38,731 nt of DNA from a virus. How positions within the stretch are numbered: position 1 is the first letter of the stretch; each line of letters opens with the position of its first letter. The notes below the pieces were generated by a model. The model searched no databases. It had not been told where the DNA came from and was given only the letters and a program-made list of their open reading frames with translations. Shown here piece by piece: positions 18,048-38,731 of this stretch. A program made the translations under genes and the position numbers. The DNA lies in the IMG/VR virus record IMGVR_UViG_3300009506_000106, positions 1-38,731 of that record. The stretch is one strand, 5' to 3'.

Positions 18048-21000
18048 TGCCGAACCTCTTCCTCCCGAGTTCTACAAACTCAGTATTGTATTTCACCATG
18101 TCCCATATTTTTTCCGATATTAATTCATCGTTCAAGATGAGTTGGAGCGTCATTGGACCCACATGGGACTGCCCCTGCGACGGGATTTTATCGGCAATCC
18201 GTTCTGCAATTCTATCTGGATCGAGTCCAATCGACTGCAGGAATCTTGCGCTATCCGATGGGTTTGTGGGAACGACATATTCCGTTCCATTTTCTGCCCC
18301 CTGGTATAGACCCGGAACGTCGATTTTACCGCCATGCTGATAGCCAGGTAAGCTCGGCGGGGATATATTCTGCAATTCACTGAGCAATTGTGCGATCTCA
18401 TCATCCGTTAGCGCACCGGATTCCCCACCGCCTACAACGACGACATTGTTATTCTGCTGAACTCCCGTCGGTATCTCCGCCGGTGTCACATAATCGTTCA
18501 GATTGACCGAGGTCACATACTGCGTGAAATCCAAAACTCCCCCAGGACCCAACTGCTCGACGAAATCCTGATAGAGGCTATCCCAATCGAGACCCTCCGG
18601 GATCTGTCCCCAATCTAGGACGATGTTCTGCTCATTTATAGCATCGATGATATCCTGAGACCGTGAGGTTACCTCATCCTGCAGGCTTGAGATATCATTC
18701 GGCTTAGAGGCGATATTTTCGAATCGTTTCGAAATCGAATCCAGTATGCTCTGGACACCGTTAAATGTCTCGGTGTAATTACCACTCGCCACCTGCATGA
18801 ATTGCAGATAATCCGGGATGAAGGACTGGAGCTCCTGGGCAGCCTCCGATGCAGTACCGATATCGGGATTATTCATTGCCTGCGATGCGAGCGAATAAAA
18901 TTTCAATACATATTTTTCAACGCTATCGACGGGCGATAGTTTTTCATTGAAAAGAAGACTATCTGCAAGGTCTTTCATTCCGTCGCTCGTTTTATTCGCC
19001 AGATCCACCTGCTCCTGCTGAAGGCTCGCGATCTTTTCGGATGCAGTCAACTGATCGTTCAGTATTGCGAGCGCATCGTCATAATATGTTTCACTGGCAG
19101 TATCGAGATTATCGAGACCCGTCCATACATACTCGAAAAGCGTTTTCCACTGGTTGATATCAAACCCGCTCAATGCCTTGTCTATTCGACCCTGCTCAAT
19201 ATTGCCCTGTATCTGCTCGAATGGCGCCGTGGAGGTCATTTTTATGACTGCCCGTCGTTCTGATTCGAGTTTCAGAAATTCCTTTGCAGATGCACCTATC
19301 GAATCGAGCTCACCCGCCATTTCTGCAAACCGCGCATTGATGTCCTGCAAGGTCTTTGCGAGCCCGGTGATCGGATTCGCCATCGATTCCGCCTCGGCAT
19401 GTACTGACGCGATGGCGGTCTGGATGAGGTTGAACGCACTTGCGAATTCCTGAGCCTTCTGAATGTAGGTATCAAGATCTGTTATGGAGTCATCCAGGAG
19501 CTCCTCATAGAGCTTTTTAATCGGATGCTCCTTGACGAGGGACGATAGATCGATGTTCGCCATGGATTCCTTCACGAATTTCATGGTCGCATCCTGGAAG
19601 AAATCCTTTGCCTCTTCTGTCAGTGTTTCTGCCCAATTGGTCAGGGTATTATTTACAAGAGATGCGAATTCCTCAGAAGTATGTTTCAACCCGGTGACAT
19701 AAAATTCTTTCGGATCGATTTTCATAAAATCTTCCGGGATATCGTCTTCTGTAATTATCCCCGCCTGTATGAAATCTTTCAATGCAGATGAAGTGTTTTC
19801 CATGATCGGACCGAGCGCGTCATTGATGGACTGGATAACGCTATCCTGCATCTCGGTCTGCCATTTGTCCTGATAATTGAACATGGCTTCTGCATTTATT
19901 TCCGGGTTATTTAGAATGTCAAACCCGGCACCGGTTTCTGCACTGAACCCGCCTCTTACTGTCGGTATTTTCGCTCCGCCGAGTAGATCCATAAAAGCGC
20001 GACCTGGATCGAATAGATAAGACAGTGATGTCCCCAACTGATCCTCGACCCAATTCCCCATATTATACATCGGGTTTCCGAGTGACGAGCTCGCCCAACC
20101 TTCACCGCCGACCATCTGCCCAAGCTCCATCGCTAGTGGCCAGATCGCCATGAACGGGTTTCCTGACGCTATGGTCGCGCCCCACCCTGCAGTCTTCTGA
20201 AAGTCATAGCTCGCCTGCGCCTCGTTGCCACCCATGAGGTTCTGATACCCGGAATATGCAGAAGTACCGGCTGCCAGGTACGGCGCATATTTCCCGATCA
20301 TCTCTCCTGCTTTTGAAAAGAAGGATGGTTGCTGTGCAAGTGCCGAGGTTCCCGTCGCCGGTGCTCCAGTCGACATGCCGTTAAATGGCTGTATTCCTGC
20401 CAGGTCTCCGGTCGACATACCGTTGACCCAATCGATGTTGGTGGACATGCCCGTGGCGATATCCGCAGGCAACGCAGAAGACTGAGCCCCGAACCCAAGC
20501 CATCCGCCGAGTTTGTTGACGCCAGACGATAACCATCCGCCGACTTTACTGAGACCTGATCCGCCGAATACTGTACCAAGCATTCCGCCGGTACCGCCAC
20601 CTCCGGTCAACTGTGCGATACTGCCACCAAGATTTATCCCCAAACCGGACAACATACCGCCTGCCATATCGGTGACAATCGGTATGATGATTTTCTGCGT
20701 CGCTATTTCTGCAATCATGCGACGGATGATCGCGACAACCCTATCCTTGAAATCGTCGAAATTCATCACGCCGTCTTCGAGCATGGATTCAATCGTATCG
20801 GAGAATCCATCCTTCATTTCATCGAGCAGTTCGATGGTTTTGTCATATGCGATTTCTGATGATGACTGGAGAGCTTCTGACCAGTCCTTCCAGGCGACGA
20901 CCATGGCATCGATCATGGTGCCGTGTCGCCGTACCTGCAACCTCTGGAGCTTATCGAGCTCATTATAGAACCACCTGGCTTTGAGCGCCTCATCGTCGGT

Positions 21001-22749
21001 GAGGGTATCGTACTGTCTTTTTTCCTCATTGAGTAGCGCAAGAGATAGGTCATAATCATCGAGCCTGAGGTTCGCCATATCCGCGTACATTTTCTCCCTG
21101 GCCGATAATTCTGCCTGCGACGTTTTACGCGCATTTTTCTCTTTTTCGATGGCGGTCACAAGGGCGAGCACTGCTTTGAACTGATCGTCGGTGACCTTCA
21201 CATCGAGCTTTTTGACCATGTTCCAGGCTTTCTCGACTGCACTTAATTCCTTGACCTCGCCCTTATATTTTTTTAGCGTACTGAGTTGATCCTCTAAGGT
21301 ATTGATCAGTTTTTGATAATCGGAAATCACCGCCTTTTTCGGATCTTTCCCGCCCTCCTGACCGAGGACTGTAACATTTTTGAGAGCCCGGTTGATTTTA
21401 TCGAGCATCGCGGTTTCGCCGGTAACATCTGCAATGAATTTATGCCAGTCTTCCGTCATACCGGACGCCATCGCCTGCCAGTTCACCTCTAATTGCCCGA
21501 AACCGGTTTTCGCAGAATCGAAAAATTTCTTTCTTTCCTCTTCTGCCTTTGTCCACTGGAGGGTGATCGCATAATATGCCCCCCGGCTCAATGCCCCGAA
21601 CATATTCCAGACGCCCTTGACCATCTCATATATGTCGCCGAGCGCAGTAGCGATGAACCTTCCGAGCACCTTGGCAATAAATGTGACGCTTTGCAGTATG
21701 ACCTCGCCGAACTTCTGGATCCCGCTCAATAATTCATCCCAGGATGTCCGAGCCTGCATGGTCTCATTGAGACCCCCAAGAACCTTTGCAGTCTTCTCCG
21801 CCTCTTTCTGCAAATCCTCCATTTTGCCTATGGTGTCGCCGAAGCCAACGAATAATGCCGAGGCAGCATCCCAAATGAGACCGAACTGGTCTGCAAGGGT
21901 CTGAAGGTACCCGGATTCCACAATCCACCGTACTGCATCCGCCAATTTCATGATGGCGCCTGCAATGCTCTCGGCAAAGGAGCCATAATCGCTTAGTTTT
22001 TTGATCCCCTCGTCGAGTTCGTTCCGAAACACCGTCCACGCCTGACTGATCGTGACCGGCATGGATTTGAATTCTTCATCGATCACTTTCTTCTGCTTTA
22101 AGAGGGCGTCCATGACCGTCTTGGCGTTCAGTTTGCCCTCCTGCCCGTAAATACGCAGTTGCCCTATGGCGATTCCCATGCCGTCGGCGATTGCTTTGGC
22201 GAGCCTCGGCGTCTGCTCGAGTACAGATCTCAATTCGTCTCCGCGAAGAGTTCCGGATGCGAGACCCTGGCTCAACTGGATGAGGGCAGCACTCGCCTCA
22301 GTAGCACTTGCCCCGGATACGATGAGAGCCTTGTTGATGGTCTCCGTTACCTGGAGCAGATCCTTTTGCGATGTGCCGAGCTCTTCGACACTGCGACCGA
22401 TCCGAGCATATAGATTTGCAGTAGCCGAATATGAGTTCCTCGTTCTATTCGATATATCCAGTAGTTCCCTCTGGACATTGGTCAAGTCCTGAGCGTTTTT
22501 CGTGACGAGCTTGAGGCGCCCTTCCAGTAGGGTCAGGTCATCGACAACATGGATGATCTCCCGCATGGCGAACGCCCCTGCAAGTGCCACAACGCCCGTT
22601 TTGAGGCTCATTACTGATTTGCCGACCTTTCTGAGCGTCGATTCAGTAGTGTTCGCATATTTTCTGAACATGCTATCGGCGCGACTCAGGTCGCTTTTTA
22701 ATGGACCGAAATCAGCTCCGAGGCTTGCTACCAGTTCTCCGAGATTCAT
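18034..22749 (-). CDS. Tail tape measure protein (1571 aa)
   Basis: The N-terminal 260 residues carry the tape-measure domain: LGELVASLGADFGPLKSDLS, then LRKVGKSVMSLKTGVVALAG, then RSVEELGTSQKDLLQVTETI, and GLASGTLRGDELRSVLEQTP. Long helical regions follow, with hydrophobic segments in the middle (residues about 690-900, Gly/Ala/Met rich) and charged helices to the C-terminus. Tape measure length scales with tail length at roughly 0.15 nm per residue (established), so a flexible tail near 235 nm is expected. The gene overlaps the gpT-like frame by 38 bp. Its presence with a tube gene and no sheath gene supports a siphovirus. Confidence 0.92.
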   Translation of the reverse strand: MNLGELVASLGADFGPLKSDLSRADSMFRKYANTTESTLRKVGKSVMSLKTGVVALAGAFAMREIIHVVDDLTLLEGRLKLVTKNAQDLTNVQRELLDISNRTRNSYSATANLYARIGRSVEELGTSQKDLLQVTETINKALIVSGASATEASAALIQLSQGLASGTLRGDELRSVLEQTPRLAKAIADGMGIAIGQLRIYGQEGKLNAKTVMDALLKQKKVIDEEFKSMPVTISQAWTVFRNELDEGIKKLSDYGSFAESIAGAIMKLADAVRWIVESGYLQTLADQFGLIWDAASALFVGFGDTIGKMEDLQKEAEKTAKVLGGLNETMQARTSWDELLSGIQKFGEVILQSVTFIAKVLGRFIATALGDIYEMVKGVWNMFGALSRGAYYAITLQWTKAEEERKKFFDSAKTGFGQLEVNWQAMASGMTEDWHKFIADVTGETAMLDKINRALKNVTVLGQEGGKDPKKAVISDYQKLINTLEDQLSTLKKYKGEVKELSAVEKAWNMVKKLDVKVTDDQFKAVLALVTAIEKEKNARKTSQAELSAREKMYADMANLRLDDYDLSLALLNEEKRQYDTLTDDEALKARWFYNELDKLQRLQVRRHGTMIDAMVVAWKDWSEALQSSSEIAYDKTIELLDEMKDGFSDTIESMLEDGVMNFDDFKDRVVAIIRRMIAEIATQKIIIPIVTDMAGGMLSGLGINLGGSIAQLTGGGGTGGMLGTVFGGSGLSKVGGWLSSGVNKLGGWLGFGAQSSALPADIATGMSTNIDWVNGMSTGDLAGIQPFNGMSTGAPATGTSALAQQPSFFSKAGEMIGKYAPYLAAGTSAYSGYQNLMGGNEAQASYDFQKTAGWGATIASGNPFMAIWPLAMELGQMVGGEGWASSSLGNPMYNMGNWVEDQLGTSLSYLFDPGRAFMDLLGGAKIPTVRGGFSAETGAGFDILNNPEINAEAMFNYQDKWQTEMQDSVIQSINDALGPIMENTSSALKDFIQAGIITEDDIPEDFMKIDPKEFYVTGLKHTSEEFASLVNNTLTNWAETLTEEAKDFFQDATMKFVKESMANIDLSSLVKEHPIKKLYEELLDDSITDLDTYIQKAQEFASAFNLIQTAIASVHAEAESMANPITGLAKTLQDINARFAEMAGELDSIGASAKEFLKLESERRAVIKMTSTAPFEQIQGNIEQGRIDKALSGFDINQWKTLFEYVWTGLDNLDTASETYYDDALAILNDQLTASEKIASLQQEQVDLANKTSDGMKDLADSLLFNEKLSPVDSVEKYVLKFYSLASQAMNNPDIGTASEAAQELQSFIPDYLQFMQVASGNYTETFNGVQSILDSISKRFENIASKPNDISSLQDEVTSRSQDIIDAINEQNIVLDWGQIPEGLDWDSLYQDFVEQLGPGGVLDFTQYVTSVNLNDYVTPAEIPTGVQQNNNVVVVGGGESGALTDDEIAQLLSELQNISPPSLPGYQHGGKIDVPGLYQGAENGTEYVVPTNPSDSARFLQSIGLDPDRIAERIADKIPSQGQSHVGPMTLQLILNDELISEKIWDMVKYNTEFVELGRKRFGNGRI

Positions 22750-25321: not shown

Positions 25322-25708
25322 CTATTCAAAACTGGTAACTGCACGTATGGATGCCCTCTTCTTGCCAGATCCCTGAGCGAATTTACCGGATGTGTCTATC
25401 ATTAAAACCTGCTGACCGTATCGAGTCCCCTGGAGCCCCAAACCGGTTTTGCCCTCGTAGATGATTCTGGCTTGCTCGGCAGCCTCCTCCTGCGCCTGTC
25501 GCAGGAGTGTCGATGCCAGTAAATGTGCAGTAAGCCATTTCTCGATCGATGCCTTCTGAGCATCGGTAAGAGACGTATCCGACCCCACGACGTCGGTTAC
25601 AATGGCATTGGCATCGTCTATAAAAGACTGGATTATCTCATCATCGGAATCGCCGAGATCCGATGTGTCGATGATGAGCTTGACATCAGATGGTTGCGTT
25701 CTGGACAT
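25322..25708 (-). CDS. Head-tail connector protein (128 aa)
   Basis: GGGAG lies 7 bases before the ATG. The N-terminal part DSDDEIIQSFIDDANAIVTD, the helix IEKWLTAHLLASTLLRQAQE and the tail GLQGTRYGQQVLMIDTSGKF fit the small helical connectors (gp6-like or DUF4054-like) that bind under the portal (family knowledge). The gene resumes the morphogenesis order after the glycan cassette. It is the first gene after the parS-like palindrome, which lies only 12 bp upstream of its start. Confidence 0.75.
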   Translation of the reverse strand: MSRTQPSDVKLIIDTSDLGDSDDEIIQSFIDDANAIVTDVVGSDTSLTDAQKASIEKWLTAHLLASTLLRQAQEEAAEQARIIYEGKTGLGLQGTRYGQQVLMIDTSGKFAQGSGKKRASIRAVTSFE

Positions 25709-25742: not shown

Positions 25743-26477
25743 TTATTTCCTGGCTTTCCATAGCTTCGGGTCAATGAACGATAACGCCTTGCTGTTCCAT
25801 TGCAGTCCGAGCCATTCGACTGTTTCCATGATCTGCCGGTAATCGCCGAGCACCATGCGTTCTGGCCATACGATCTTGACATTGAGACCGCACTGTATCA
25901 TCTCGATGAATCGCTCTTCATGCCTTTCAATCCACCACCGCCAGGCTTCTTTTTCATCGGACGCGCCAACTGCCTTCTGATTTTCCTCCCGCCGAAACCG
26001 GTTCATGAAACTGGTTTTAATGCAGGAGGCGATAATGTCGCCCGGTCGCCTTCTAACGATAATCCACTTGGCATTCGGGAATGCATAGCTCCAAATCGGC
26101 CACATGAGGCACATTTTCGCGCCCTTATAGAACCACTGCCGGTCTTCCTTATAACCCTCCTCGGTCATTACTGTCAGTATACGAGCTTTCCAATCAGGCG
26201 GGATCGGGAGCTCTCCTGCAACCGGCAGTGGGTACTGGCATTTATCGTCGAGCCCCTGCGACCTGAGAAATGGTTTGACGACGCTATTTCTGATCCGCGC
26301 ATTCTCGAACATGCCCTTCTGATTGTTTTTATTTGGTCCGGACATACGTCCGCCGAACGCCCCGCAGATATTGATCACGCCACCGACGAGACTGGTGCCA
26401 GATCTCGCGCATCCTGTAATCAGTATCGGCTCTTCCCGGTACCGGTACCGCTTCAATGTATCCTCCTGATTATTCAT
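25743..26477 (-). CDS. PAPS-type sulfotransferase 2 (244 aa)
   Basis: The start at 26477 overlaps the upstream stop as ATGA. Residues 17-30 read PILITGCARSGTSL, the 5'-phosphosulfate-binding loop of sulfotransferases. PNAKWIIVRRRPGDIIASCI further on matches the 3'-phosphate-binding motif (R..P.D...S) (family knowledge). The protein would move a sulfuryl group from PAPS to a hydroxyl or amine, most likely on a sugar, in the cytoplasm. A basic aromatic segment (EAWRWWIERHEERFIEMIQC) may line the acceptor site. It is last in the GT/ST block. No membrane span, so it differs from Golgi-type enzymes. Acceptor unknown. Confidence 0.8.
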   Translation of the reverse strand: MNNQEDTLKRYRYREEPILITGCARSGTSLVGGVINICGAFGGRMSGPNKNNQKGMFENARIRNSVVKPFLRSQGLDDKCQYPLPVAGELPIPPDWKARILTVMTEEGYKEDRQWFYKGAKMCLMWPIWSYAFPNAKWIIVRRRPGDIIASCIKTSFMNRFRREENQKAVGASDEKEAWRWWIERHEERFIEMIQCGLNVKIVWPERMVLGDYRQIMETVEWLGLQWNSKALSFIDPKLWKARK

Positions 26478-27217
26478 ATCCAGTATCCTCTTATCCAAGG
26501 GTCTTTGATTTGATGGGGTCGAGGCACCCCATGGCAAGAAACGATTCTTGCATCCTTTGGCAGTCTTCTGGTCGGTGCCACATGCCGTTTATAGCTCACG
26601 ACCTGATTAGGGGCATACTGATCCCACCGGTCTGCATATTCTCCGATGCATTTTCGGATCCAGTATCTCTCGCGCCCGGATGTCTCTTCGATTGCGCCGT
26701 CCACGTCTTTGATGAACGGTTTCCAGAAAACAGATTCCGCCTTCGCGCCTGCAGTAAAGCTCATGATGTCGCCGTCCAGTTTCCATTCGAGCCCCCGCTT
26801 GAATTTAGATCTGGCGCAGAATTCTCCATGATAATTGAGAAAATCCGTTAGGTCGCCCACGATAATGATATCGATATCCAGGCATAAAACCTGATGCCCG
26901 AATAGACCTGCATCCCTGGAGAACATGAAAAGCCGGGGCAGTACGCCATGTTGCGTTACCATCGGGAACTGTCTTGTCTCGATTTCCGGGTCGAGCCCCA
27001 CGAGCTCTTCATTCGTAAAGCAGATGAAGTCCACCTGGCGTCCTGCATATCTCCTGATGCCGTTGAAGAGATTATTGATATATCGGCCAGGCAGGTTATC
27101 GGATACCGTCCCTGCACGTTTCATGAATTTTTTCTGCAGGTTTTTATGACCGTCAACCGGCGTATAATCCGGTTGTTGCCATCGGTCGCCCTGCCAGTAA
27201 AAGCAGATTATTTTCAT
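26474..27217 (-). CDS. GT-A glycosyltransferase 3 (247 aa)
   Basis: The start at 27217 overlaps the previous stop as ATGA. The protein begins MKIICFYWQGDRW and carries VLCLDIDIIIVGDL near residue 110, with Asp114-x-Asp116 as the metal-binding DxD motif of GT-A enzymes, in the setting seen in GT8-like proteins (family knowledge). A later segment (FCARSKFKRGLEWKLDGDIM) could form the acceptor site. It shares the ICxYWQGD start with the two other transferases of the block but is the most divergent. Donor and acceptor sugars cannot be told from sequence. Confidence 0.75.
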   Translation of the reverse strand: MKIICFYWQGDRWQQPDYTPVDGHKNLQKKFMKRAGTVSDNLPGRYINNLFNGIRRYAGRQVDFICFTNEELVGLDPEIETRQFPMVTQHGVLPRLFMFSRDAGLFGHQVLCLDIDIIIVGDLTDFLNYHGEFCARSKFKRGLEWKLDGDIMSFTAGAKAESVFWKPFIKDVDGAIEETSGRERYWIRKCIGEYADRWDQYAPNQVVSYKRHVAPTRRLPKDARIVSCHGVPRPHQIKDPWIRGYWI

Positions 27218-27885
27218 TGATTGCCTCTCGCCATGGGCAGGAGCCAAGGATATTTGGATGCAGGGTTATAAAACGATCCGTCCTTCGGCTGCCCGGTGAT
27301 TATTATCGCGTCGTCGGGTGCTTTTTTTGAACTGCACTTTCCGAGCTTCGCGAGCCATTCTGATGGGAATGTCGGTTGGTCCGGGATCAGGTCTCCCATC
27401 ATGTCCTGATCACTCCGGTATTTCTGCATGAACGCATCCGATCTCTTTCTAAACATTTCGTAAAGATCTGACATGCACCCCGGGTCAAATAGCATGGTCG
27501 ACGCCTGATATTTGAGCACGGACTGCTCTTTCATGAACCCCGGCTTGTTATCATATGGCGTCGGGAACATGACCAGATTGCCGGGATAATCGAGAATCGG
27601 CGAAAGGTCGCGGATCACATAGGAGTCCAGATCGAGATACAATGTCCTGCCAGGAGGCATGTCCGGTCGGTGTAGTTCCATTTTTGACCACCACCCCGGA
27701 AAATTGTGCCTCAATGGAATTATTGTCGCAGGAAAACTCAGGCGCAATTCCACATTGCTCAAAATATAAAAATCGAACGGTCGGTCAATATGATGCCATA
27801 CTGACTGCCATAGGTGATGGATGTTATCGGCGCCGAAATCGCGCCCACGGAAATCACCCTGCCAGTATAGACAAATCACATTCAT
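27214..27885 (-). CDS. GT-A glycosyltransferase 2 (223 aa)
   Basis: The start at 27885 overlaps the sulfotransferase stop as ATGA. The sequence MNVICLYWQGDFRGR, then FPGWWSKMELHRPDMPPGRT, LYLDLDSYVI (DxD at residues 85-87) and KYRSDQDMMGDLIPD aligns by eye with glycosyltransferase 1 over its whole length, including the P-x-EW-x-xKLG segment. The two are clearly paralogues. The fold should be GT-A with metal-dependent sugar transfer from a nucleotide sugar in the cytoplasm. The 223 residues lack any membrane anchor. It is separated from its paralogue by a sulfotransferase gene. Confidence 0.78.
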   Translation of the reverse strand: MNVICLYWQGDFRGRDFGADNIHHLWQSVWHHIDRPFDFYILSNVELRLSFPATIIPLRHNFPGWWSKMELHRPDMPPGRTLYLDLDSYVIRDLSPILDYPGNLVMFPTPYDNKPGFMKEQSVLKYQASTMLFDPGCMSDLYEMFRKRSDAFMQKYRSDQDMMGDLIPDQPTFPSEWLAKLGKCSSKKAPDDAIIITGQPKDGSFYNPASKYPWLLPMARGNQ

Positions 27886-28523
27886 TTCATCATCCCCGGC
27901 TTGAGCCATTCATTGATTTTCTGCCAGTCTTCCCGGATGCCGACAAAATTAAAAAGACTTTTTATGTCTTTTTCTCTCCTCTCGGATATCGCCTTCACAT
28001 CCGCTCTAAACACATTCTGAACAGTCGTTTCGACTTCTGTCTGTCGGTATTTTAGGGCAGTAATAAAATCTATCCTCTGTATTTTCGGTCGTTTACGCAT
28101 GCCGGGATGCCGGTCTGTACTATCGAGGATGCTCAATGTCGGGCGTTCTGTCATGATCCATAGCGCATTCGGGAAGAGGGCGTCCCATAATTTGTAAAAT
28201 ACGAGCGTCCAGGACGTCTTAACGAGCCACCTCTGCCTGGGGGGTACTATACCCCTCAGTTCATCCAGAACGTCAGAAGGCGACGACGTAGCGGATTCTG
28301 GCAACGGGATTTTCCAGTTCTTGTAGCCCACTTTTTTCGCCTCGCGCTTCATGATGCCCTTGATATCGATATTTTCTGATCCGAAATTGGAGTTGCTACC
28401 GGGGTACCGGGTCGTCCTGGCGTGACCTACCCATACCCCATGCTGATGCAGGAGACCGGCGAGCATCGTGGTGCCAGACCGGGGTGGACCGGCGATAAGT
28501 ATCGGATACTGATCTATTTCCAT
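27882..28523 (-). CDS. PAPS-type sulfotransferase 1 (213 aa)
   Basis: Residues 7-20 read PILIAGPPRSGTTM, the phosphosulfate-binding loop. NALWIMTERPTLSILDSTDR later fits the 3'-phosphate-binding region, with Arg and Ser at the expected spacing (family knowledge). WLVKTSWTLVFYKLWDALFP supplies the usual strand before it. The gene overlaps glycosyltransferase 1 by 10 bp and glycosyltransferase 2 as ATGA, so synthesis of transferase and sulfotransferase is coupled. Acceptor unknown, with a glycan made by the neighbours the obvious candidate. It shares the loop with sulfotransferase 2 but little else, so the two probably act on different positions. Confidence 0.8.
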   Translation of the reverse strand: MEIDQYPILIAGPPRSGTTMLAGLLHQHGVWVGHARTTRYPGSNSNFGSENIDIKGIMKREAKKVGYKNWKIPLPESATSSPSDVLDELRGIVPPRQRWLVKTSWTLVFYKLWDALFPNALWIMTERPTLSILDSTDRHPGMRKRPKIQRIDFITALKYRQTEVETTVQNVFRADVKAISERREKDIKSLFNFVGIREDWQKINEWLKPGMMK

Positions 28524-29215
28524 AATTTTCTGAACTCCGGGAACCGCTTTGATGCGATCATGTTTTTTAACGGCATCGCGAGCAGTATTTTGACATCCTC
28601 CGGGATCTGATCGAGCTTTCCAGTCCGCCTATCGATAAATGCACCGAGCTTTCTAATCCATTCCGGTGGGTATTTCGTGAAGTCAGACCAGAATCGTTTC
28701 AAATAATCCTGATCTGACCGGTAATTCGCCATGAAATATTCTGGCGCCTCTTTGAATGCGTCATATATCTCGCTCATGGTGCCGGTATTGAAACTCATTA
28801 CTGAGGAGTTGTACCCATGGGACATCCTCGGATTGCCCTTATCCTTCGTCTGAGCAGGAGATATCATCATCCGATTGCCGTGACCGTTCATGACGAAAAA
28901 ATCGATCTCCTGCAGTATTACCAGGTCCAAGTCGAGATATAGCACCCGGTCATATTTAAACGGCAGATCTGCCCGGAATATTTCTATTTTCGACCACCAC
29001 CCCTGCCAGTCATGTAGTAACGGCAGGACGGTGACGCCATCGATCACGAATTCATGATTGGAAAGGCAGACGAATTCATAGGGGCTCGTCGACCACCTTC
29101 TGACCATCTTGTGAAGGCGATCCACCCATAACGGCGAATACTGCGTTTGCACATACCCGTCAGAATTGAAATCGCCCATCCAAAGGACGCAGATGACTGT
29201 TACACCGTTTTCCAT
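28514..29215 (-). CDS. GT-A glycosyltransferase 1 (233 aa)
   Basis: The gene overlaps the methyltransferase by 16 bp. It begins MENGVTVICVLWMGDFNSDG, carries GWWSKIEIFRADLPF and VLYLDLDLVIL (DxD at residues 95-97), and later NYRSDQDYLKRFWSDF and PPEWIRKLG. These are GT-A features with GT8-like spacing (family knowledge). It is the closest relative of glycosyltransferase 2. There is no signal peptide or membrane span; the WW pair and the YRSDQD box are probably in or near the active site. Substrates unknown. Confidence 0.78.
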   Translation of the reverse strand: MENGVTVICVLWMGDFNSDGYVQTQYSPLWVDRLHKMVRRWSTSPYEFVCLSNHEFVIDGVTVLPLLHDWQGWWSKIEIFRADLPFKYDRVLYLDLDLVILQEIDFFVMNGHGNRMMISPAQTKDKGNPRMSHGYNSSVMSFNTGTMSEIYDAFKEAPEYFMANYRSDQDYLKRFWSDFTKYPPEWIRKLGAFIDRRTGKLDQIPEDVKILLAMPLKNMIASKRFPEFRKLWK

Positions 29216-29727
29216 AAGTACCAGAACCTATCCTGCCTGAGCTTGATATTGTCCCGACCATAAAATTCGTCTACTGCCTGCACGACACCGGGAAACCGCC
29301 TCTGATGATAATCATGACCGCAGATCAATCCGCCGGCGCGAACTTTCGGATGCCATGCCTTGATATCCTCCAGGCAACATTCATAGGAATGATCTGCATC
29401 GATAAAGACAAAATCGAGGGATGCGTCCTTGACGCGCCCAGCAGCAGTAACACTCGGAAACGGCAGTATTTTTATCCGGTTGCGGTATCTCCTAATCCGT
29501 TTTTCCCAGAGAGCCTTCGCGGTGCCGGTCGTGCAGTACATCGGGTGCTTTTTATCGAGATGCCTCGGTCCGGGATAATAAGCCACCTCGATGAGAACAA
29601 GCTCAGGATTCTTTTTGAGAAGTTCCATGGCGGTCTTTCCGTTCCCGGTACCGACTTCTGCACCCCGGGTCAATTTGTGATCCCGGATAAAATCATTGAT
29701 AATGTGAAATCGTTTTATTCCGTTCAT
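29200..29727 (-). CDS. Class I SAM-dependent methyltransferase (175 aa)
   Basis: The ATG at 29727 is chosen because AGGAG lies 7 bases upstream and because it overlaps the radical SAM stop as ATGA; the frame is open further upstream. Motif I is GAEVGTGNGKTAMELL (residues 22-37), followed by a strand ending in Glu (LVLIEVAYYPG). The later segment SLDFVFIDADHSYECCLEDI, then GGLICGHDYHQRRFPGVVQA, is the signature of the Methyltransf_24 / TylF-like group, which often O-methylates sugars and uses metal bound by Asp/His (family knowledge). It may methylate the glycan made by the adjacent transferases. Confidence 0.8.
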   Translation of the reverse strand: MNGIKRFHIINDFIRDHKLTRGAEVGTGNGKTAMELLKKNPELVLIEVAYYPGPRHLDKKHPMYCTTGTAKALWEKRIRRYRNRIKILPFPSVTAAGRVKDASLDFVFIDADHSYECCLEDIKAWHPKVRAGGLICGHDYHQRRFPGVVQAVDEFYGRDNIKLRQDRFWYLWKTV

Positions 29728-30914
29728 TTGGAGCTCCTGCATTTTCTGTATGCAGATCTTAAATCCCGCTCGGTGAGCCCATGGGGTATGAATATGAGCT
29801 CGCGGTTGTTCCACTGTTTCCAGTCATAGGTTTTAACCGTGCCGAATTCCTTTCTTTTCTGCCAGAACACCGAGCCGGGATACGGGATGGCATACCCGAA
29901 GAACGGATTGCCGTCAGTACCGATTGCCCTGGAGAGCCGATAGGTGGCATCGAGCGATTCGAGGGTCTCGCCCATGTTTCCGATCATCCATAGGCAGTGC
30001 AGTTGAATTTTTCCTTTGCGCCTTTTGACCATCTCATGGACTTTGACATAATCGGCAGTCGTTGCCCGTTTGTTGATCGTTTTTAGCACCCGGTCGTCTC
30101 CTGATTCTGCCCCCAAGCTCAGTTTATCGACGCCCATTTCAATGAAGGCATCGAGCTTTTCTTCTGTCAGTGTTTTGCCGTGGACGAACACCTGGAACCT
30201 CATCTGCACCTTGCGGTTCTTGAGAGCCAGTATGAACCTTTCGAGCCAGTTCATATTGAGACCGAAAATGTCGTCATAAATAAAGAGGCGTTTCCATCTA
30301 AAGAACCCTTCCAGGCAGGAGATATAGAGGGCAGCCTCGTCTGGATCAGGTGTCAGTACTTTCCTCGATTCGGAGCAGAAATGGCAATTGAACATGCATC
30401 CCCTGGAGAGCAATACCGCAGGCTTTTTCCGTTCTGGTCTCGCGAGCATGTATCTTTTGACGAACTGCGGGGAAGGGAATTCCATCTCGATGAAATCCTC
30501 GAATTCAAATGGTCTGCCGTATATGATATGATCGTTTTCTGATCCGTTTGCGATACCTTCCATGGCATACTCGCCGTCCCCGATCACGATGTGATTTGCA
30601 GTCTTTACGTCGAGATCCAGGAGCATATCGAGAACGTCAGGCTGAAAGTGGCGCCCACCGAGAACCAGTTTTGCATTCGGGAACCTCTCCCGCACCGACG
30701 CCATCACCCTCGGCAGTAAATGGCGCGTTACTGTCGACGAGCTTATCCCGACGATGTCGTAATAACCGCCGATGATCTCTACCGGCAGTGATGTGAGTCC
30801 CCATAAATGCAGGAAATCGACATCGAATCCCTTTCTGCCGAGGTAATCATAAATCGAATAGAGACCAATCGGGTTGGTGTTCGTCCCGAATGCTATGAGC
30901 AGAATTTTATTCAT
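29724..30914 (-). CDS. Radical SAM enzyme with B12-binding-like domain (396 aa)
   Basis: Residues 1-130 form a Rossmann-like cobalamin-binding type domain (KILLIAFGTNTNPIGLYSIY, YYDIVGISSSTVTRHLLPRV, KLVLGGRHF, VIGDGEYAMEGI). Residues 168-183 hold the cluster motif, Cys173-x3-Cys177-x2-Cys180 (RGCMFNCHFC), followed by a radical SAM barrel (RLFIYDDIFGLN, MGVDKLSLGAESGDDRVLKT). This is the class B radical SAM layout, many members of which methylate unreactive carbon or phosphorus atoms or rearrange sugars (family knowledge). AAGG precedes the start, which overlaps the upstream stop as TAATG. Such an enzyme among phage virion genes is rare. The substrate is unknown; a sugar or lipid is inferred from the neighbours. 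Confidence 0.85.
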   Translation of the reverse strand: MNKILLIAFGTNTNPIGLYSIYDYLGRKGFDVDFLHLWGLTSLPVEIIGGYYDIVGISSSTVTRHLLPRVMASVRERFPNAKLVLGGRHFQPDVLDMLLDLDVKTANHIVIGDGEYAMEGIANGSENDHIIYGRPFEFEDFIEMEFPSPQFVKRYMLARPERKKPAVLLSRGCMFNCHFCSESRKVLTPDPDEAALYISCLEGFFRWKRLFIYDDIFGLNMNWLERFILALKNRKVQMRFQVFVHGKTLTEEKLDAFIEMGVDKLSLGAESGDDRVLKTINKRATTADYVKVHEMVKRRKGKIQLHCLWMIGNMGETLESLDATYRLSRAIGTDGNPFFGYAIPYPGSVFWQKRKEFGTVKTYDWKQWNNRELIFIPHGLTERDLRSAYRKCRSSK

Positions 30915-31117
30915 TAGACCTTCTTGTACGGCTCAGTTATTTTCCATCCGAGTTTTTTGGCGACCTCATTACAACGCTCGATGCCTGCCTTAATCGTTCT
31001 GGTGACGCCGGCGACAAAATATTCCCCGCCTTCTGACTTAATGCGTACTTCGAATTTTTTAGTCGCATATTTGTCTATCATGCCTTTCGCGAGAATCTTT
31101 GGGGTTTTTTTACTCAT
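30914..31117 (-). CDS. Small basic protein (67 aa)
   Basis: AGGAG lies upstream of the ATG at 31117. The lysine-rich protein (MSKKTPKILAKGMIDKYATK, FEVRIKSEGGEYFVAGVTRT, IERCNEVAKKLGWKI) has a beta-beta-alpha pattern like a small ligand- or RNA-binding domain. I do not recognise a family. It is coupled by TAATG overlap to the radical SAM gene and may act with it, for example as a partner or substrate carrier, but this is only context. Confidence 0.55.
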   Translation of the reverse strand: MSKKTPKILAKGMIDKYATKKFEVRIKSEGGEYFVAGVTRTIKAGIERCNEVAKKLGWKITEPYKKV

Positions 31118-31143
31118 GATTAGCTTCTCCTGTCTAATTAGAT

Positions 31144-31851
31144 CTATAGAACATCGCTTAATTTTACCTTTGGGAAAACATCGATTGAACTGGTCGGAGA
31201 GACATTCAGTATCTCGATCCCGATGCGCCGGGCGTCTTCTGCAATCTCCGGAAACCCTTTCAAATGCCTTCCGAAAGCCGGTTTTTTCCTCCTATTCTGG
31301 ATATCGCGGGAATGCGATCCATGCCAGTGGCTATAGGATGTCTTCTTGTCGATATTCATATCGAATCCGAGCAGTAAGATCTGCTTGACTCCGAAATGAT
31401 TGGCTATACTGATCGATGCTGCCCCACTATTCGAATTCCAGGCAACATGGTGCCGATCAGTATGGATGCCGTGGCGTTTGCCCGGATCTTTAGGGACGTA
31501 TTTGATGCCGTCAGTATCGCCTTTTTTCCGTTTGTCGAACCTCGGACAACATGTCAGTTTGAGACCGGGGAACTTCGCCAGTCTTAGCCGATGCACAAGA
31601 TACCAGGTCGAGTCGCCGAAAAACATGGCATCGATCCAGTCGCCGATCTGGTAGGCATTGTTGATGCCTATGACATGTTCTGCATGCAGTACGGATAGGA
31701 AATCAGAATAGATATGTGACGGATACTCACCGGATGCCACTTTTTTGACGACATCATCAGGAATACCGAAGACCTTGGTCAGAGATGAACCGCCACCGAT
31801 GATCCAACACCTTCCGTCCTGCCAGATGGGTGGAACCTTCCATGCAGGCAT
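31144..31851 (-). CDS. MptE-like (DUF115) Rossmann protein
   Basis: I prefer the ATG at 31851, which has GAGGT 4 bases upstream; an ATG at 31866 overlaps the previous stop but has a weaker site. The key segments are RCWIIGGGSSLTKV, then HVIGINNAYQIGDWIDAMFF, GDSTWYL, a conserved VAWNSNSGAASISIANHFGV and ILLLGFDMN. These match the phage-borne MptE-like/DUF115 family, related to sialyltransferase-type Rossmann folds (family knowledge). The GGGSS loop and NSGAASI suggest nucleotide or nucleotide-sugar binding. It opens the accessory block and may start or supply glycan synthesis. Its reaction is not established. Confidence 0.7.
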   Translation of the reverse strand: MPAWKVPPIWQDGRCWIIGGGSSLTKVFGIPDDVVKKVASGEYPSHIYSDFLSVLHAEHVIGINNAYQIGDWIDAMFFGDSTWYLVHRLRLAKFPGLKLTCCPRFDKRKKGDTDGIKYVPKDPGKRHGIHTDRHHVAWNSNSGAASISIANHFGVKQILLLGFDMNIDKKTSYSHWHGSHSRDIQNRRKKPAFGRHLKGFPEIAEDARRIGIEILNVSPTSSIDVFPKVKLSDVL

Positions 31852-31858
31852 AGCGACC

Positions 31859-32356
31859 TCATTCATTTAGGCTTCTAAGCAGTTCATCTGCCTCATGGAG
31901 GCGGAGAGCTTTTTCATTGAGAATCTTGCCGGTAACAGTATTGATGACGTTATACCACCCGGCGGACTGAACCACGATTTCATGCTCATTTTCCGGGTTT
32001 TCATTGCTGGCAGTATTGGCATCGGCGTCGGTTCCCGGTGCCTGGTCGGTGGTTTTGGCATCTGCCTGGGTTTCTGGAGTAGGCGGGTTTTCGAGATCGT
32101 CGAGAGCCTTTTTCTGCTCATCGGTCAGTTCGTTATCCGGAACTTTTTTCTTTTCGAATTCCGTTCTGCCTTTGAGCGGGGGTTCGACTGGCAGATCCTC
32201 TACCGGCTTTATGATGTCCCGGAATGCCTCAGGCACTTCGGACGGGTATGCATCGAATTTCTGCTGTGGCTTGATGATGTCCATCTTGCCGTTTATTCTT
32301 CTGAGCCGGTGGGTGCTATGCCCCGTATGGTGCCATCGAATTTTTTTCTCTTCCAT
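31859..32356 (-). CDS. Hypothetical protein following the major capsid gene (165 aa)
   Basis: AGGAGG stands 7 bases before the ATG. The N-terminus (IRWHHTGHSTHRLRRINGKM, DIIKPQQKFDAYPSEVPEAF) and the C-terminus (SAGWYNVINTVTGKILNEKA, LRLHEADELLRSL) look conserved and folded, with a long acidic Thr/Asp/Ala/Pro-rich linker (residues about 80-125) between. Phages often encode such a protein right after the capsid gene. A capsid-associated or connector-adjacent role is likely but the family is not certain. A weak intrinsic terminator precedes it, so its expression should be lower than that of the capsid protein. Confidence 0.6.
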   Translation of the reverse strand: MEEKKIRWHHTGHSTHRLRRINGKMDIIKPQQKFDAYPSEVPEAFRDIIKPVEDLPVEPPLKGRTEFEKKKVPDNELTDEQKKALDDLENPPTPETQADAKTTDQAPGTDADANTASNENPENEHEIVVQSAGWYNVINTVTGKILNEKALRLHEADELLRSLNE

Positions 32357-32439: not shown

Positions 32440-33549
32440 TTAGGTATAATGGACGATGCCACTATGCCCTTCCTGATCTGCCCTTACCTGGGGAACTTGA
32501 ATGATTAAAACCTTGAACTTGTTGACCATCCCACCCTCAGTAGACCACTGGATGTTCTGCATCGCCATACCACGAACGATGCGGACGGTTTCCTTGTTCA
32601 TTTCCACGAGCTCGACATTGTCTGCAGGCATGGTGTCGATGACCTGCACGTCCTCGATGCCACCGATCTTGAGAATCCTCTCGCGGATGGTGGTACCCGG
32701 TGTCGTGGAATCATAATCATCGTCCATGACTGTCTCATAGTTGGTCGGGATATACAGTACCCACGGACCATAATGCCGGTCGTTGATGCTCGCCTGCTTC
32801 ATGGCACGAACATCTGCAACGATGTTCGCTCCGCCTTCGATGGCAGAATCGTCCCAATTTGCAGTAAGACTACCAGTATTTCGTTGCGGATGGTTGAGCA
32901 GGGAATAAATCGTCCCGCCACCATAGGCATAACTGGTATTTGTGAACGTCAAGGATTCGAGCTTTTCCGCCACCTTACGTGCTGCATGTTCTGCACTGGT
33001 CGCGTCAAGCGGGTTTCCGAGCTTTCTGCTATTCGCCAACACCCGCATATTGATCTCATAATCAACATGGATGATCGGAATTGGCATATAGACGTGTTGG
33101 AAGTCAGGACGGTCTCCCTGCCCCCTGGTGACGCCGTCCATGGTCATTTCTGCCTCCATGGAGTCCGACACCGTATGGGTTTCCAGGATGGTCGTTCCCA
33201 TTCCGTCTCCGAGATCATAGGTCAGTCCTCTTGAGATCAGACCGTTGACACCCGGCAGCCGGGTTCTGGCAACTTCCAGTATCGCCTCGTCGAGGGTCTT
33301 CCACTCATCTCTTCTGAGGGTGGCGTTCACCTGCAACGGATTGTTACTGCGTAGTGGGATCTGGCTATAATTCCTGATATCGCCCTTGTCCCCGCCCCGG
33401 AAGACTGTGATATATGACCTTCCGTCAGGATTGATATACGGTCTCATCATCCCGACATTGATGGCGCCCATTTCGAAGAAGCGTCCTGCAACCTCTCCCT
33501 GTCCACCGTTTATGCCGATCAAATCGACTTGCGCGTTAAAATCGTTCAA
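32440..33549 (-). CDS. Major capsid protein, HK97-fold encapsulin-like
   Basis: I set the start at the TTG at 33549, which lies 8 bases after GGAGG; a GTG at 33558 sits directly on that site and is less likely. The segments RRDEWKTLDEAILEVARTRL, PGVNGLISRGLTYDLGDGMG, then DFQHVYMPIPIIHVDYEINM, RVLANSRKLGNPLDATSAEH and AARKVAEKLESLTFTN match the encapsulin-like HK97-fold capsid group (family knowledge). The 369 residues are a normal length. No separate delta domain is visible, consistent with the separate protease/scaffold gene upstream. The strong ribosome site and following weak terminator fit very high expression. Confidence 0.85.
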   Translation of the reverse strand: MNDFNAQVDLIGINGGQGEVAGRFFEMGAINVGMMRPYINPDGRSYITVFRGGDKGDIRNYSQIPLRSNNPLQVNATLRRDEWKTLDEAILEVARTRLPGVNGLISRGLTYDLGDGMGTTILETHTVSDSMEAEMTMDGVTRGQGDRPDFQHVYMPIPIIHVDYEINMRVLANSRKLGNPLDATSAEHAARKVAEKLESLTFTNTSYAYGGGTIYSLLNHPQRNTGSLTANWDDSAIEGGANIVADVRAMKQASINDRHYGPWVLYIPTNYETVMDDDYDSTTPGTTIRERILKIGGIEDVQVIDTMPADNVELVEMNKETVRIVRGMAMQNIQWSTEGGMVNKFKVLIIQVPQVRADQEGHSGIVHYT

Positions 33550-33566
33550 CTGATTCACCTCCCCTC

Positions 33567-36284: not shown

Positions 36285-36532
36285 GATGCCACCTCCGGTA
36301 TCATGTACAGTTTTTCCGGTTCCGGATTTTTAATGAACCGGTCAGAACCTTCCCTGCAGATCATTACAAATGCCCCATAGGGTCGCGAATGATCCATCTG
36401 AACCAGTTGAGCGAATTTCCTGACCTGCTCCTGATCCCTGCAATTGGCACTCGCCACATATTCTGTCCGCTCGATGACCGTATTTCCGTCATCGTCCTTG
36501 CCGTCATACTGCCAGTGAAATTGTACTTTCAT
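36281..36532 (-). CDS. Hypothetical protein (83 aa)
   Basis: The ATG at 36532 has AAGGTGG upstream and overlaps the methyltransferase-like stop as ATGA; the frame is open further up but without a site. The sequence MKVQFHWQYDGKDDDGNTVI, ERTEYVASANCRDQEQVRKF, then SRPYGAFVMICREGSDRF is a small alpha/beta domain. I do not recognise a family. It belongs to the dense run of small genes between MuF and the protease. Confidence 0.55.
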   Translation of the reverse strand: MKVQFHWQYDGKDDDGNTVIERTEYVASANCRDQEQVRKFAQLVQMDHSRPYGAFVMICREGSDRFIKNPEPEKLYMIPEVAS

Positions 36533-37180
36533 TCGATTGCCACCTTTCCCCAATCTATACCCCCCATGTATCGGAAGAAGGCGCAACAACATCCGTCCTG
36601 CCAGTCAATGAGCTTTTCGAAGGAATCCGGGTTGTTTTCGATGAACCTTTTCTGCACCTCGGCGATCAACCGCTTTCTGCCAAACCGCTTCTGGTAAAAA
36701 TGATAGTCCAGTAATCCCCAAATGGTTTTTCCGGGGATAAACGCCGGTCCCACCTGCCTTACTGCATATTCGAAGACAGGATTTCGTTTTGGCGCATCGA
36801 AGAGGCAAATCTCGATCTCCTGTTCTGGATTCCAGTGCAGGGTGTCGGTGATATTGCCCCGGTATGCGACGACATGGTGGTATATCTGATTAATGTTTTT
36901 AATGCAGAAAGGTAAAAGATTCTCGCCCTTGCGGATCTCAATTCCTGCATCACGTGCCTTTATGACCTCCTCCCTCCTCCTTGTTCGCCTTCCACCGGTC
37001 ATAGCAGTAAAACGGCTTGTTATAACCGGCGAATACAAGCCCCTGGAGGAGATAAAATGCAGTCGCGCCGAACCATGATCCGAGCTCGACTGCGACGCCC
37101 TCGCCAGTCCATCCTGCACCGATTTTGGTCAGGTAATCATGGACGTGTTCTGGCGTCATTGCCGGGATCTGCTCGGTCAT
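36529..37180 (-). pseudogene. Methyltransferase-like gene split by a frameshift
   Basis: Two frames together encode one SAM methyltransferase-like protein of about 215 residues. The first frame gives GEGVAVELGSWFGATAFYLL (motif I) and KPFYCYDRWKANKEE, then runs into a stop. The second frame resumes with EEVIKARDAGIEIRKGENLL, IEICLFDAPKRNPVFEYAVR and a C-terminal part that overlaps the next gene. The cause is visible: GAGGAGG occurs twice in tandem at 36966-36979 on the coding strand. Removing one copy restores AAG GAG GAG GTC and an open frame. It may be a true frameshift, a slippage-switched gene, or a sequencing error. The second frame also has an ATG (coding MTGGRR...) near the break, so a truncated product is possible. 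Confidence 0.7.
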
Positions 37181-37380
37181 TCTGATGCCTCATAAACAAT
37201 GTTATTCCCCTGACCGTCTACTGGCGCAGCATGGGGATTATCGCCATATGCGATTTCCCTCGGTATTCCTTCCGGGAATGCAATACAGACCGGCTTTTCG
37301 CTCAGTTCTGTGCCGTCGTTCTGATCGATGCCGACATAGTGAGCGCATTTTCTTTCCGAGCATCGGGGCTCGATTATCAT
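37177..37380 (-). CDS. Small Cys-containing protein (67 aa)
   Basis: AGAGG precedes the ATG, which overlaps the MuF gene stop as ATGA. The sequence MIIEPRCSERKCAHYVGI, then EKPVCIAFPEGIPREIAYGD and NPHAAPVDGQGNNIVYEASE has a C-x4-C-x-H ... C pattern that recurs in small phage proteins beside head genes. Metal binding by the three cysteines and the histidine is likely. No function is known to me. Confidence 0.65.
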   Translation of the reverse strand: MIIEPRCSERKCAHYVGIDQNDGTELSEKPVCIAFPEGIPREIAYGDNPHAAPVDGQGNNIVYEASE

Positions 37381-38731
37381 ATTGCCTCTCTTTCAAGATC
37401 CAGAAAAAACTGCTCTATTTCCGGTGCCAGAGATGTGGATGTGCCAAATTTATATTCTGGATGCGTGATTACCGAGAATGCTTCTGCAAACGCCTCATTC
37501 TCGTTTGTAAGCGCATAATTACTGATCTCTCTGATCGGTTCTGCAATCTTCCGCCTTGGGTCATAGTAACGGTTTTTCCAGATGGATTTCCATTTTGAAA
37601 TGGTGCTGTTCTCCATCCATTCACTATACAACTGCGCATATAGCTTATGTCCTAATTCGTGGCGCAGGTATCCGTTCCGACCTGATACTGCAACGTGTTT
37701 CCTCTTGAAGAGATTTATGTCCTCTATTGAAGGATTGATATACCCGACATCACCGCTCATTCCGAGCATCACCCGGTTTCTGTTTGGATCAAAAAACCCG
37801 CCGATGGTGGCATTGTTCTTCTTGAAGATAGGGTATGGATCGTTCACCATATCGATGCTCGCCAGTGGCTTTTTGAACATTCTTGCAGTCGTATTCGGCC
37901 ATTGGGTGTTCAGTCTTTCAACCTCCCTCAATGCGCCACTCGCCACATTAAGGAACTGCTCGTCAGTATAATGATTCGGTACCATTTCGATCTGACTTTC
38001 AAGCGACATCGGGTGGTTAGTGATTTTTTTCACGCCGACTGCCTTGAACCTCGCCTGAGCCTCCTCGATAGTATTTACAGTCGCATATGTGAATTCTGGC
38101 CGGCGCATCGCGATCTGCCTCGCCTCGTCTTCCCTTGCGATTCTCGCCCTCTCCCTGGCGCGACCTTCTCTTCTAGCTCTTTCGCGGGGAGTCTCCTCCG
38201 GGATCGGCGGAATCACCCCTCTCCGGGGACTAGGGGTGTAACCTTCTGTTTCTATCGTACTAATTTCCTCGCCCTCATCGCGGAGCTTCGGCAGCCAGGC
38301 GCATCTGCATTGCGGGTGGACTGGTATGACGCCCCTTGCCTGCTTTGTCGTATAGACATGACCTTCCAGACTCTCGCAGATCGGGCAGGCATTTCCTGAC
38401 GTGCGAAATTCGACATCGGCAAAGACATCGAACTGCCCGAAATTCTCATATTCCTGCAACTGCGCCTCGGCATGCGCCCGGATGACTTCAGTACGCGCCA
38501 ACATCGATGCCCGTCTTTGCGCCGGGATAAACCGACCGAGTGTGTCAGTAATGCCGAGATCGCCCACGGGACCCGTGATTGTCCGGGTGAGTAGTTTTGC
38601 CATCTCGCGGGGATGCTTTCCTTCCGCCATGGCTTGAGATAGTATCCTTGACACTTGACCTTCCATGGCGTCAGTAATGCCTTTGAGATCACCGAATGCC
38701 CGGGTGTACAGTATGCCGACGCGGTCTACAT
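37377..38731 (-). CDS. MuF-type head morphogenesis protein with metallopeptidase-like C-terminus, partial
   Basis: The frame is open to the right edge, so the N-terminus lies outside. The visible part begins VGILYTRAFGDLKGITDAME and contains ARTEVIRAHAEAQLQEYENF and the zinc-binding CPICESLEGHVYTTKQARG, VIPVHPQCRCAW typical of Mu F/SPP1 gp7 minor head proteins (family knowledge). After an Arg/Glu-rich linker comes a C-terminal domain with YLRHELGHKLYAQL, a HExxH-type zinc site, followed by NYALTNENEAFAEAFSV, whose glutamates could give the third ligand. Such toxin- or peptidase-like tails on MuF proteins are thought to be injected with DNA. The substrate is unknown. Counted from the first visible Met, the site is His336-Glu337-x-x-His340. 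Confidence 0.85.
   Translation of the reverse strand, partial: VDRVGILYTRAFGDLKGITDAMEGQVSRILSQAMAEGKHPREMAKLLTRTITGPVGDLGITDTLGRFIPAQRRASMLARTEVIRAHAEAQLQEYENFGQFDVFADVEFRTSGNACPICESLEGHVYTTKQARGVIPVHPQCRCAWLPKLRDEGEEISTIETEGYTPSPRRGVIPPIPEETPRERARREGRARERARIAREDEARQIAMRRPEFTYATVNTIEEAQARFKAVGVKKITNHPMSLESQIEMVPNHYTDEQFLNVASGALREVERLNTQWPNTTARMFKKPLASIDMVNDPYPIFKKNNATIGGFFDPNRNRVMLGMSGDVGYINPSIEDINLFKRKHVAVSGRNGYLRHELGHKLYAQLYSEWMENSTISKWKSIWKNRYYDPRRKIAEPIREISNYALTNENEAFAEAFSVITHPEYKFGTSTSLAPEIEQFFLDLEREAI

Follow-up and report, generated by a model that had tools for sequence, protein, structure and literature searches.

The window (the whole analysed stretch of 38,731 nt, virus record IMGVR_UViG_3300009506_000106) carries on its minus strand a cassette of predicted glycan enzymes, flanked by the major capsid gene on one side and the first connector gene on the other. 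The set comprises an MptE/Maf-like transferase, a B12-radical-SAM enzyme, an O-methyltransferase-like protein, three GT-A glycosyltransferases, and two PAPS-type sulfotransferases. Genes and coordinates agree with the preliminary description, and the placement of the cassette between capsid and connector genes is confirmed by protein families, coordinates, and neighbours; an ORF of 67 aa inside the cassette (30914-31117) is added to the earlier list. From the capsid side, the features are:

32440..33558, minus strand: major capsid protein, left boundary (phrog_771/264; 35% identity with the MCP annotated in Brevundimonas phage MaInes)
31859..32356, minus strand: small capsid-adjacent two-module protein g31859, accompanying the cassette (AF2 model; N-module-enzyme fusions in relatives)
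31144..31851, minus strand: MptE-like/Maf-Cst-like putative glycosyltransferase, constant first gene (phrog_4603, 1.5e-32; PF01973 in homologues; VIA Z)
30914..31117, minus strand: 67-aa ORF inside the cassette, no family match and no assigned function
29724..30914, minus strand: putative B12-binding radical SAM enzyme with C-x3-C-x2-C, optional member (PF02310, 2e-12; PF04055, 1e-16)
29200..29727, minus strand: putative SAM methyltransferase, Methyltransf_24, O-methyltransferase-like (Pfam, 3e-14)
28514..29215, minus strand: GT1, putative GT-A type glycosyltransferase, DLD (phrog_1962, 3e-20; invariant DxD)
27882..28523, minus strand: ST1, putative sulfotransferase, PAPS motifs intact (PF13469, Sulfotransfer_3, 4e-8, above cut-off; invariant R and S of the 3'-phosphate site)
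27214..27885, minus strand: GT2, putative GT-A type glycosyltransferase, DLD (phrog_1962, 9e-14; invariant DxD)
26474..27217, minus strand: GT3, putative GT-A type glycosyltransferase, DID (phrog_1962, 5e-17; invariant DxD)
25743..26477, minus strand: ST2, putative sulfotransferase, constant last gene (PF13469, 3.5e-5 alone; 13/13 homologues)
25322..25708, minus strand: first head-tail connector gene, right boundary (phrog_37884/302; kept 3' of ST2 in relatives)

Connector and neck genes continue from 25708 downwards. The overlapping starts and stops reported earlier are borne out: exact 4-nt ATGA overlaps join the radical SAM and methyltransferase genes, ST1 and GT2, GT2 and GT3, and GT3 and ST2, and shorter or longer ones occur at 30914 (1 nt), between GT1 and ST1 (10 nt), and between the methyltransferase gene and GT1 (16 nt). 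The MptE-like gene starts with ATG at 31851, with an SD upstream, and the methyltransferase gene with ATGA at 29727, also with an SD. The GC content of the cassette (0.48-0.51) is that of the adjoining structural genes, while scans of the locus for promoters and terminators stayed at or close to the shuffle level and were uninformative. Translational coupling of this kind supports the earlier proposal that the genes are made as one co-expressed set, placed with the late virion genes.

Archaeal MptE is a pterin kinase. The name 'MptE-like' given to the first enzyme is misleading as a label, as the predicted fold is closest to the Maf/Cst glycosyltransferases. PF01973 was detected in 12/12 homologues (best E 3e-5), the window protein itself falling below the curated cut-off; the matching phrog_4603 is labelled 'alpha-2,3-sialyltransferase'. 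In structure comparison (VIA Z), the highest scores were obtained with Maf (5mu5, 13.4), Cst-I (12.4), and Cst-II (11.7), against 10.7 for archaeal MptE, 8-9 for human sialyltransferases, and about 4 or less for unrelated structures (the highest of these 4.1). The catalytic domain is predicted to adopt the fold of the Maf/GT42/GT29 superfamily, in common with the Maf flagellin O-glycosyltransferases (Maf_flag10, PF01973) and the GT42 enzymes Cst-I and Cst-II. Members of GT42 act on glycans and lipids. Unlike Maf and Cst, the phage protein is a single domain of 235 residues. Maf consists of three domains (PMC11339370), and the phage protein aligns only to residues 257-510 of 5mu5, corresponding to the central domain, which weakens the case for a protein acceptor of the first enzyme.

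Among the enzymes that follow, the three glycosyltransferases match phrog_1962 (3e-20 to 9e-14), which PHROGs files under 'moron', and their DxD motif is invariant. The radical SAM enzyme contains both the B12 domain and the C-x3-C-x2-C radical SAM domain; AprD4 is its only sequence match in the PDB, and none of the NCBIfam subfamilies reached its cut-off. It recurs in one relative only (L037), found through the MptE search; as sole query, it yielded no confirmed relative in viral contigs, and locus L068 encodes a different B12-radical-SAM protein. Judged by gene content, the radical SAM enzyme is optional, and what stays constant is the MptE/Maf-like gene together with the last sulfotransferase. 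The 67-aa ORF has no match in Pfam, PHROG, or NCBIfam, and no relative among loci L003-L021. In the alignment of ST2, all 13 members match PF13469 (best 7e-10). Both ST1 and ST2 possess an RSGT-type 5'-phosphosulfate loop with invariant R and G, and R143 and S151 of the 3'-phosphate site are invariant in the alignments, as expected for PAPS-dependent sulfotransferases, to which both proteins can be assigned on these motifs.

The cassette is not an isolated one but a regular fixture in a large clade of phages. A survey of relatives covered 72 non-redundant closed (complete) capsid-to-connector intervals. The MptE-like gene opens 64/72 of them, and ST2 is last, or followed by one gene, in 60/72, that is in all 60 of the loci possessing it; both hold together in 57/72. 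When loci were chosen by the capsid protein alone, MptE was found in 34 of 36 closed loci. ST2 without MptE occurs in L027, L028, and L167. The search for the same set in relatives, suggested in the preliminary description, was successful, as L037 repeats the set of the window gene for gene. Five of the 72 loci keep the capsid and lack the cassette, which is therefore dispensable. The middle genes are hypervariable and include GT11, GT29, and DXD glycosyltransferases (fucosyl- and sialyltransferases among them), GDP-mannose dehydratase/epimerases and other sugar-nucleotide enzymes, a DegT aminotransferase, FkbM and other methyltransferases, a PfkB kinase, and a transketolase. In several relatives an APS kinase (PF01583, 6e-18), which would supply PAPS, lies directly after or near ST2. 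The earlier prediction of a sulfated, methylated glycan is supported, and the adjoining APS kinase strengthens its sulfation part.

Chance ORFs were rejected as an explanation because about 100 loci show the same families, motifs, and order. A recent foreign insertion was also rejected, as there is no GC shift and gene order is kept across capsids 46-64% identical. Loss of catalytic residues in homologues had been raised as a possible objection; the motifs are intact and invariant, so that decayed genes can be dismissed as well.

The carriers form a large group of tailed bacterial viruses that have not been cultured. A tblastn search of 50,697 phage records gave no match to ST2, and no isolate phage with ST2 or the set was found; the MptE search of phage records returned only relatives of 27-30% identity, among which jumbo phages of Brevundimonas and Caulobacter are numerous. 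An integrase occurs in 2/20 viral records, so there is mostly no sign of lysogeny. Capsid relatives fall in MAG bins of Bacteroidota, Balneolales, Syntrophomonadaceae, Spirochaetota, Halanaerobiaceae, and others; as binning of phage contigs is unreliable, no host is claimed.

The small protein g31859 is predicted (AF2) to form two ordered modules (pLDDT above 85) joined by a disordered linker. It is present in 66/67 closed loci with the cassette and in 2/5 without (Fisher p 7e-4, a value that overstates independence, as the loci are related and only five lack the cassette). The exceptions include L032, which keeps the full small protein without the cassette, and L128, which has the cassette without the small protein. 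In seven loci the N-module is fused to cassette enzymes. The N-module bears only a weak resemblance to the C-domain of lambda gpFI, a capsid-binding domain from the same map position, which scores Z 3.8 where GINS domains score 5-7. A mucin-like linker serving as acceptor site was considered and dropped, the linker being short in many relatives, with no obvious Ser/Thr enrichment. The small protein is the best candidate for an acceptor, or for a dock that might bring the enzymes to the capsid.

Taken in full, the locus is probably a virion-glycan biosynthesis operon with a constant first and last enzyme. The cassette and the capsid genes would be transcribed together, and the soluble enzymes of the cassette would act in the host cytosol during head assembly. 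The first enzyme, with its Maf/Cst fold, might begin the chain by attaching or transferring a sugar, a virion protein being the most likely recipient; extension and decoration would fall to the variable middle (here the three GT-A enzymes, the methyltransferase, the B12-radical-SAM enzyme, and ST1); and ST2 would add a sulfate derived from PAPS, the small protein serving as acceptor or as dock at the capsid. A particle surface that varies and carries negative charge is the likely benefit. A more specific version is tentative and falls somewhat short of probable: a serotype-like locus, in which a constant Maf-like protein glycosyltransferase starts and a constant sulfotransferase ends the chain, the hypervariable middle, swapped from phage to phage, gives many different sulfated virion glycans, and a capsid-binding module docks the enzymes on the head.

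The preliminary description had left the target between virion and host surface. O-antigen is often modified by phage glycosyltransferases, and the cassette might act late in infection on a glycan or glycolipid of the host surface, for instance to block superinfection or to free trapped progeny; the 'moron' category of phrog_1962 and the GT29, GT11, and epimerase genes, typical of capsule loci, would suit such a role. Nevertheless, no credible flippase, polymerase, transporter, or polytopic membrane transferase was found among 784 cassette ORFs, whereas the E. coli O16/colanic acid controls were detected (6-9 segments in wbbH, rfbX, and wzxC). It is thus unlikely that phage proteins export the product to the host surface, and the virion is favoured; an acceptor in the cytosol, in the simplest case a virion protein, seems to fit best. 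Soluble enzymes could still modify lipid-linked intermediates subsequently flipped by host proteins, but the fixed place in the capsid operon and the co-occurring capsid-adjacent protein also speak against the host surface, which is an unlikely target overall. With the same locus and a virion target, ST2 could instead sulfate protein tyrosines directly, making the set partly a protein-sulfation system. Protein-tyrosine sulfotransferases are the best PDB matches of a joint ST1+ST2 profile (E 2e-9) and rank first for ST2 alone (E 0.003), and ST2 occurs in three loci that lack MptE; the match of ST2 alone is weak, however, its catalytic residues were not matched, and Pfam places ST2 in the broad Sulfotransfer_3 family. 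Tyrosine sulfation is quite improbable, and the sulfate is more plausibly placed on sugar. Modification of DNA bases, by which glycosylated and sulfated nucleotides would shield the genome from host nucleases, is very improbable: phage nucleotide modification by glycosyltransferases and sulfotransferases has a precedent cited in PMC10829341, and phrog_2675 is labelled DNA methyltransferase, but thymidylate-synthase-type genes, which make modified pyrimidines, occur in only 2/19 phage records (one over the cut-off), the methyltransferase belongs to the O-methyltransferase-like class Methyltransf_24, and neither the Maf/Cst/GT29/GT11 enzymes nor the capsid-connector position fits.

To our knowledge, few phages are documented to have glycosylated particles. 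The virion-glycan operon proposed here shares with them glycosyltransferases encoded in or near the virion gene set, and glycan enzymes in such a position have a precedent in Corndog and the cluster O mycobacteriophages, where an O-methyltransferase, two glycosyltransferases, and a GlcNAc-transferase lie between the portal and protease genes and capsid modification was proposed by the authors (PMC4351075). The Corndog set differs in that its four genes occupy another position, in five phages that are close relatives, with no sulfotransferase mentioned, no Maf/Cst-like or radical SAM enzyme, and no fixed-ends, variable-middle pattern described. The cluster F1 mycobacteriophages Che8 and Rita have glycosylated capsids, and the glycans are reported to act as a shield (Freeman et al. 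2023, cited in PMC11256854); these phages likewise encode glycosyltransferases, with glycans on virion proteins, which here are predicted. In the F1 relative Maravista, the transferase genes lie near the 3' end of the genome, not in a capsid-connector operon, and sulfation is not reported there. The role of phage sulfotransferases is stated to be unclear (PMC10580990). Virion glycosylation is known from mycobacteriophages, and the new elements are sulfation and the architecture of fixed ends with a variable middle. The earlier description took a late operon combining sulfation with a radical SAM step to be undescribed; the literature searched yielded no hypervariable version carrying a sulfotransferase, and the radical SAM enzyme is optional. 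The locus is also a source of numerous soluble glycan enzymes yet to be characterised and of a possible tag for docking on virions. Bacterial capsule and O-antigen loci similarly have conserved flanks with hypervariable sugar genes between them; unlike these, the cassette lacks flippase, polymerase, and export genes and sits in a phage capsid operon. With a large clade in which glycosylation and sulfation genes are both fixed beside the capsid gene around a hypervariable middle, the question whether phages vary the surface of their particles as bacteria vary their capsules can be tested directly.

The window holds 38.7 kb of a siphophage genome whose virion genes all lie on the minus strand, with a set of glycan-enzyme genes (the cassette) between the major capsid gene and the first connector gene:

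37377-38666, minus strand, MuF-type minor head protein
between the minor head and major capsid genes, minus strand, protease-like and decoration-like genes
32440-33558, minus strand, major capsid protein
31859-32356, minus strand, small protein between the major capsid gene and the cassette
31851-25743, minus strand, cassette
past the cassette, minus strand, connector, neck, major tail and chaperone genes
18034-22749, minus strand, tape measure protein
9613-17619, tail-fibre-like protein of 2668 aa, matching a PHROG family of tail fibres only over residues 1082-1497

An uncharacterised head-region protein (36529-37119; no PHROGs match at 0.01), encoded between the genes for the minor head protein and the protease, is about 40% identical in several relatives (loci L006, L014, L017, and L021).

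The preliminary description listed an MptE-like protein, a radical SAM enzyme, a methyltransferase, glycosyltransferases, and two sulfotransferases, coupled by overlapping starts and stops. Pfam, PHROGs, homologue sets, and invariant motifs uphold this list: DxD is invariant in the glycosyltransferases, as is the Arg/Ser pair of the 3'-phosphate site in the sulfotransferases, and the radical SAM protein carries C-x3-C-x2-C. Exact ATGA overlaps at four junctions, together with other short overlaps, couple the genes, whose GC content equals that of their neighbours. One addition is a 67-aa ORF (30914-31117) that separates the gene for the MptE-like protein from that for the radical SAM enzyme; it has no family match and is not found at the matching place in the related locus L037.

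The cassette is a standing locus. Capsid-based searches, one sulfotransferase search, and one MptE-based search (best 80 of at least 563 relatives kept) yielded 168 loci with a capsid gene, 130 of them non-redundant. Among the 72 having both boundaries, 64 contain the MptE-like gene, always first past the small protein, and 60 contain the sulfotransferase ST2 (25743-26477, minus strand, in the window), always last or with a single gene behind it; 57 have both and five neither. As the MptE-based search had selected on MptE, the capsid-selected set L114-L178 was counted separately: 34 and 31 of its 36 closed loci, some near-duplicates, contain MptE and ST2, respectively. The capsid-to-connector interval has a median length of 5.2 kb and a range of 83 to 10768 bases; in the outgroup phages MaInes and Hardycor1 it lacks a cassette. 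L037 matches the window's set gene for gene, radical SAM enzyme included, while L019, L021, L020, L056, L107, and L139 are close versions without that enzyme. The record of L037 also encodes a thymidylate-synthase-family gene (G001:13729-14073, 1e-14), not found in most relatives; the DNA of this phage may be modified.

Across 49 two-ended loci, mean pairwise identity is 48% for MptE and 50% for ST2. The middle is variable: in well-populated classes with capsids 50-70% identical, 82-87% of locus pairs have no middle gene in common at 35% identity, and what the middle contains is uncorrelated with how similar the capsids are (r 0.05). The 466 middle ORFs from 97 loci form 115 clusters, whose representatives match in Pfam methyltransferases, NAD epimerases, GDP-mannose dehydratases, RmlD-like reductases, GT2, GT11, DegT aminotransferases, FkbM methyltransferases, radical SAM, PfkB, and transketolase; a separate analysis added GT29 and DXD glycosyltransferases.

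An APS kinase gene (PF01583, 6e-18) directly or almost directly follows ST2 in L019, L020, L021, L056, L057, L085, L139, and L142, and lies just ahead of the last gene in L107. Since its product, PAPS, is the sulfotransferase donor, the genes labelled as sulfotransferases very likely function as such. No APS kinase is encoded in the window's own record, which would therefore rely on host PAPS. We predict with high confidence that the locus product is a sulfated glycan; the sulfate may sit on tyrosine as well as on sugar.

The preliminary description left both virion and host surface as targets. A host-surface glycan requires export; of 784 cassette ORFs, all but three (for a PfkB kinase, a dehydrogenase, and a single copy of MptE) have at most one hydrophobic segment, against 6, 9, and 7 in E. 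coli wbbH, rfbX, and wzxC in the same test, which makes phage-driven export to the host surface unlikely. Given cytosolic synthesis and expression alongside head genes, the most parsimonious acceptor is a virion protein, and the glycan is probably carried by the virion.

The AlphaFold model of the MptE-like protein (31144-31851, minus strand; pLDDT 86) resembles the catalytic domain of a Maf flagellin glycosyltransferase (Z 13.4 over 190 residues), then Cst-I (12.4), Cst-II (11.7), archaeal MptE kinase (10.7), and human sialyltransferases (8-9), versus about 4 or less for unrelated structures; Foldseek alone gave no significant match. Unlike Maf, the phage protein is the Maf_flag10 domain (PF01973) alone. 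Maf proteins transfer nonulosonic acids to flagellin Ser/Thr (PMC11339370), so that, on its predicted fold, a protein acceptor is plausible for the phage enzyme. In L019 (425 aa), L012 (710 aa), L077 (1108 aa), and L088 (948 aa), the MptE-like enzyme forms part of a longer fusion protein that probably combines several enzymes.

The small protein occurs in 66 of the 67 cassette-bearing loci versus two of the five that lack a cassette (Fisher p 7e-4, with few negatives and loci treated without phylogeny). Its N-terminal module (~45 residues) is fused to glycosyltransferase-like or MptE-like cassette proteins in seven loci (L003:12189-14306, L015:12286-14643, L042:6070-7542, L052:965-3085, L162:12534-13481, L171:12181-13125, and L172:3084-5375), which suggests that it serves docking, possibly as a virion docking tag. 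A weak structural likeness (Z 3.8) to lambda gpFI, which binds the capsid and whose gene occupies the equivalent map position, offers only a lead.

Virion glycosylation has precedents: in Corndog and its relatives, four modification genes lie between those for the portal and the protease, with capsid modification proposed (PMC4351075), and the capsids of Che8 and Rita are reported as glycan-bearing (PMC11256854). Phage sulfotransferase function has been called unclear (PMC10580990). Full-text searches of the open-licence literature turned up no description of phage sulfotransferases within a virion operon. Compared with known virion glycosylation, the new elements are sulfation, a constant Maf/Cst-like enzyme, and the architecture of fixed ends and a variable middle.
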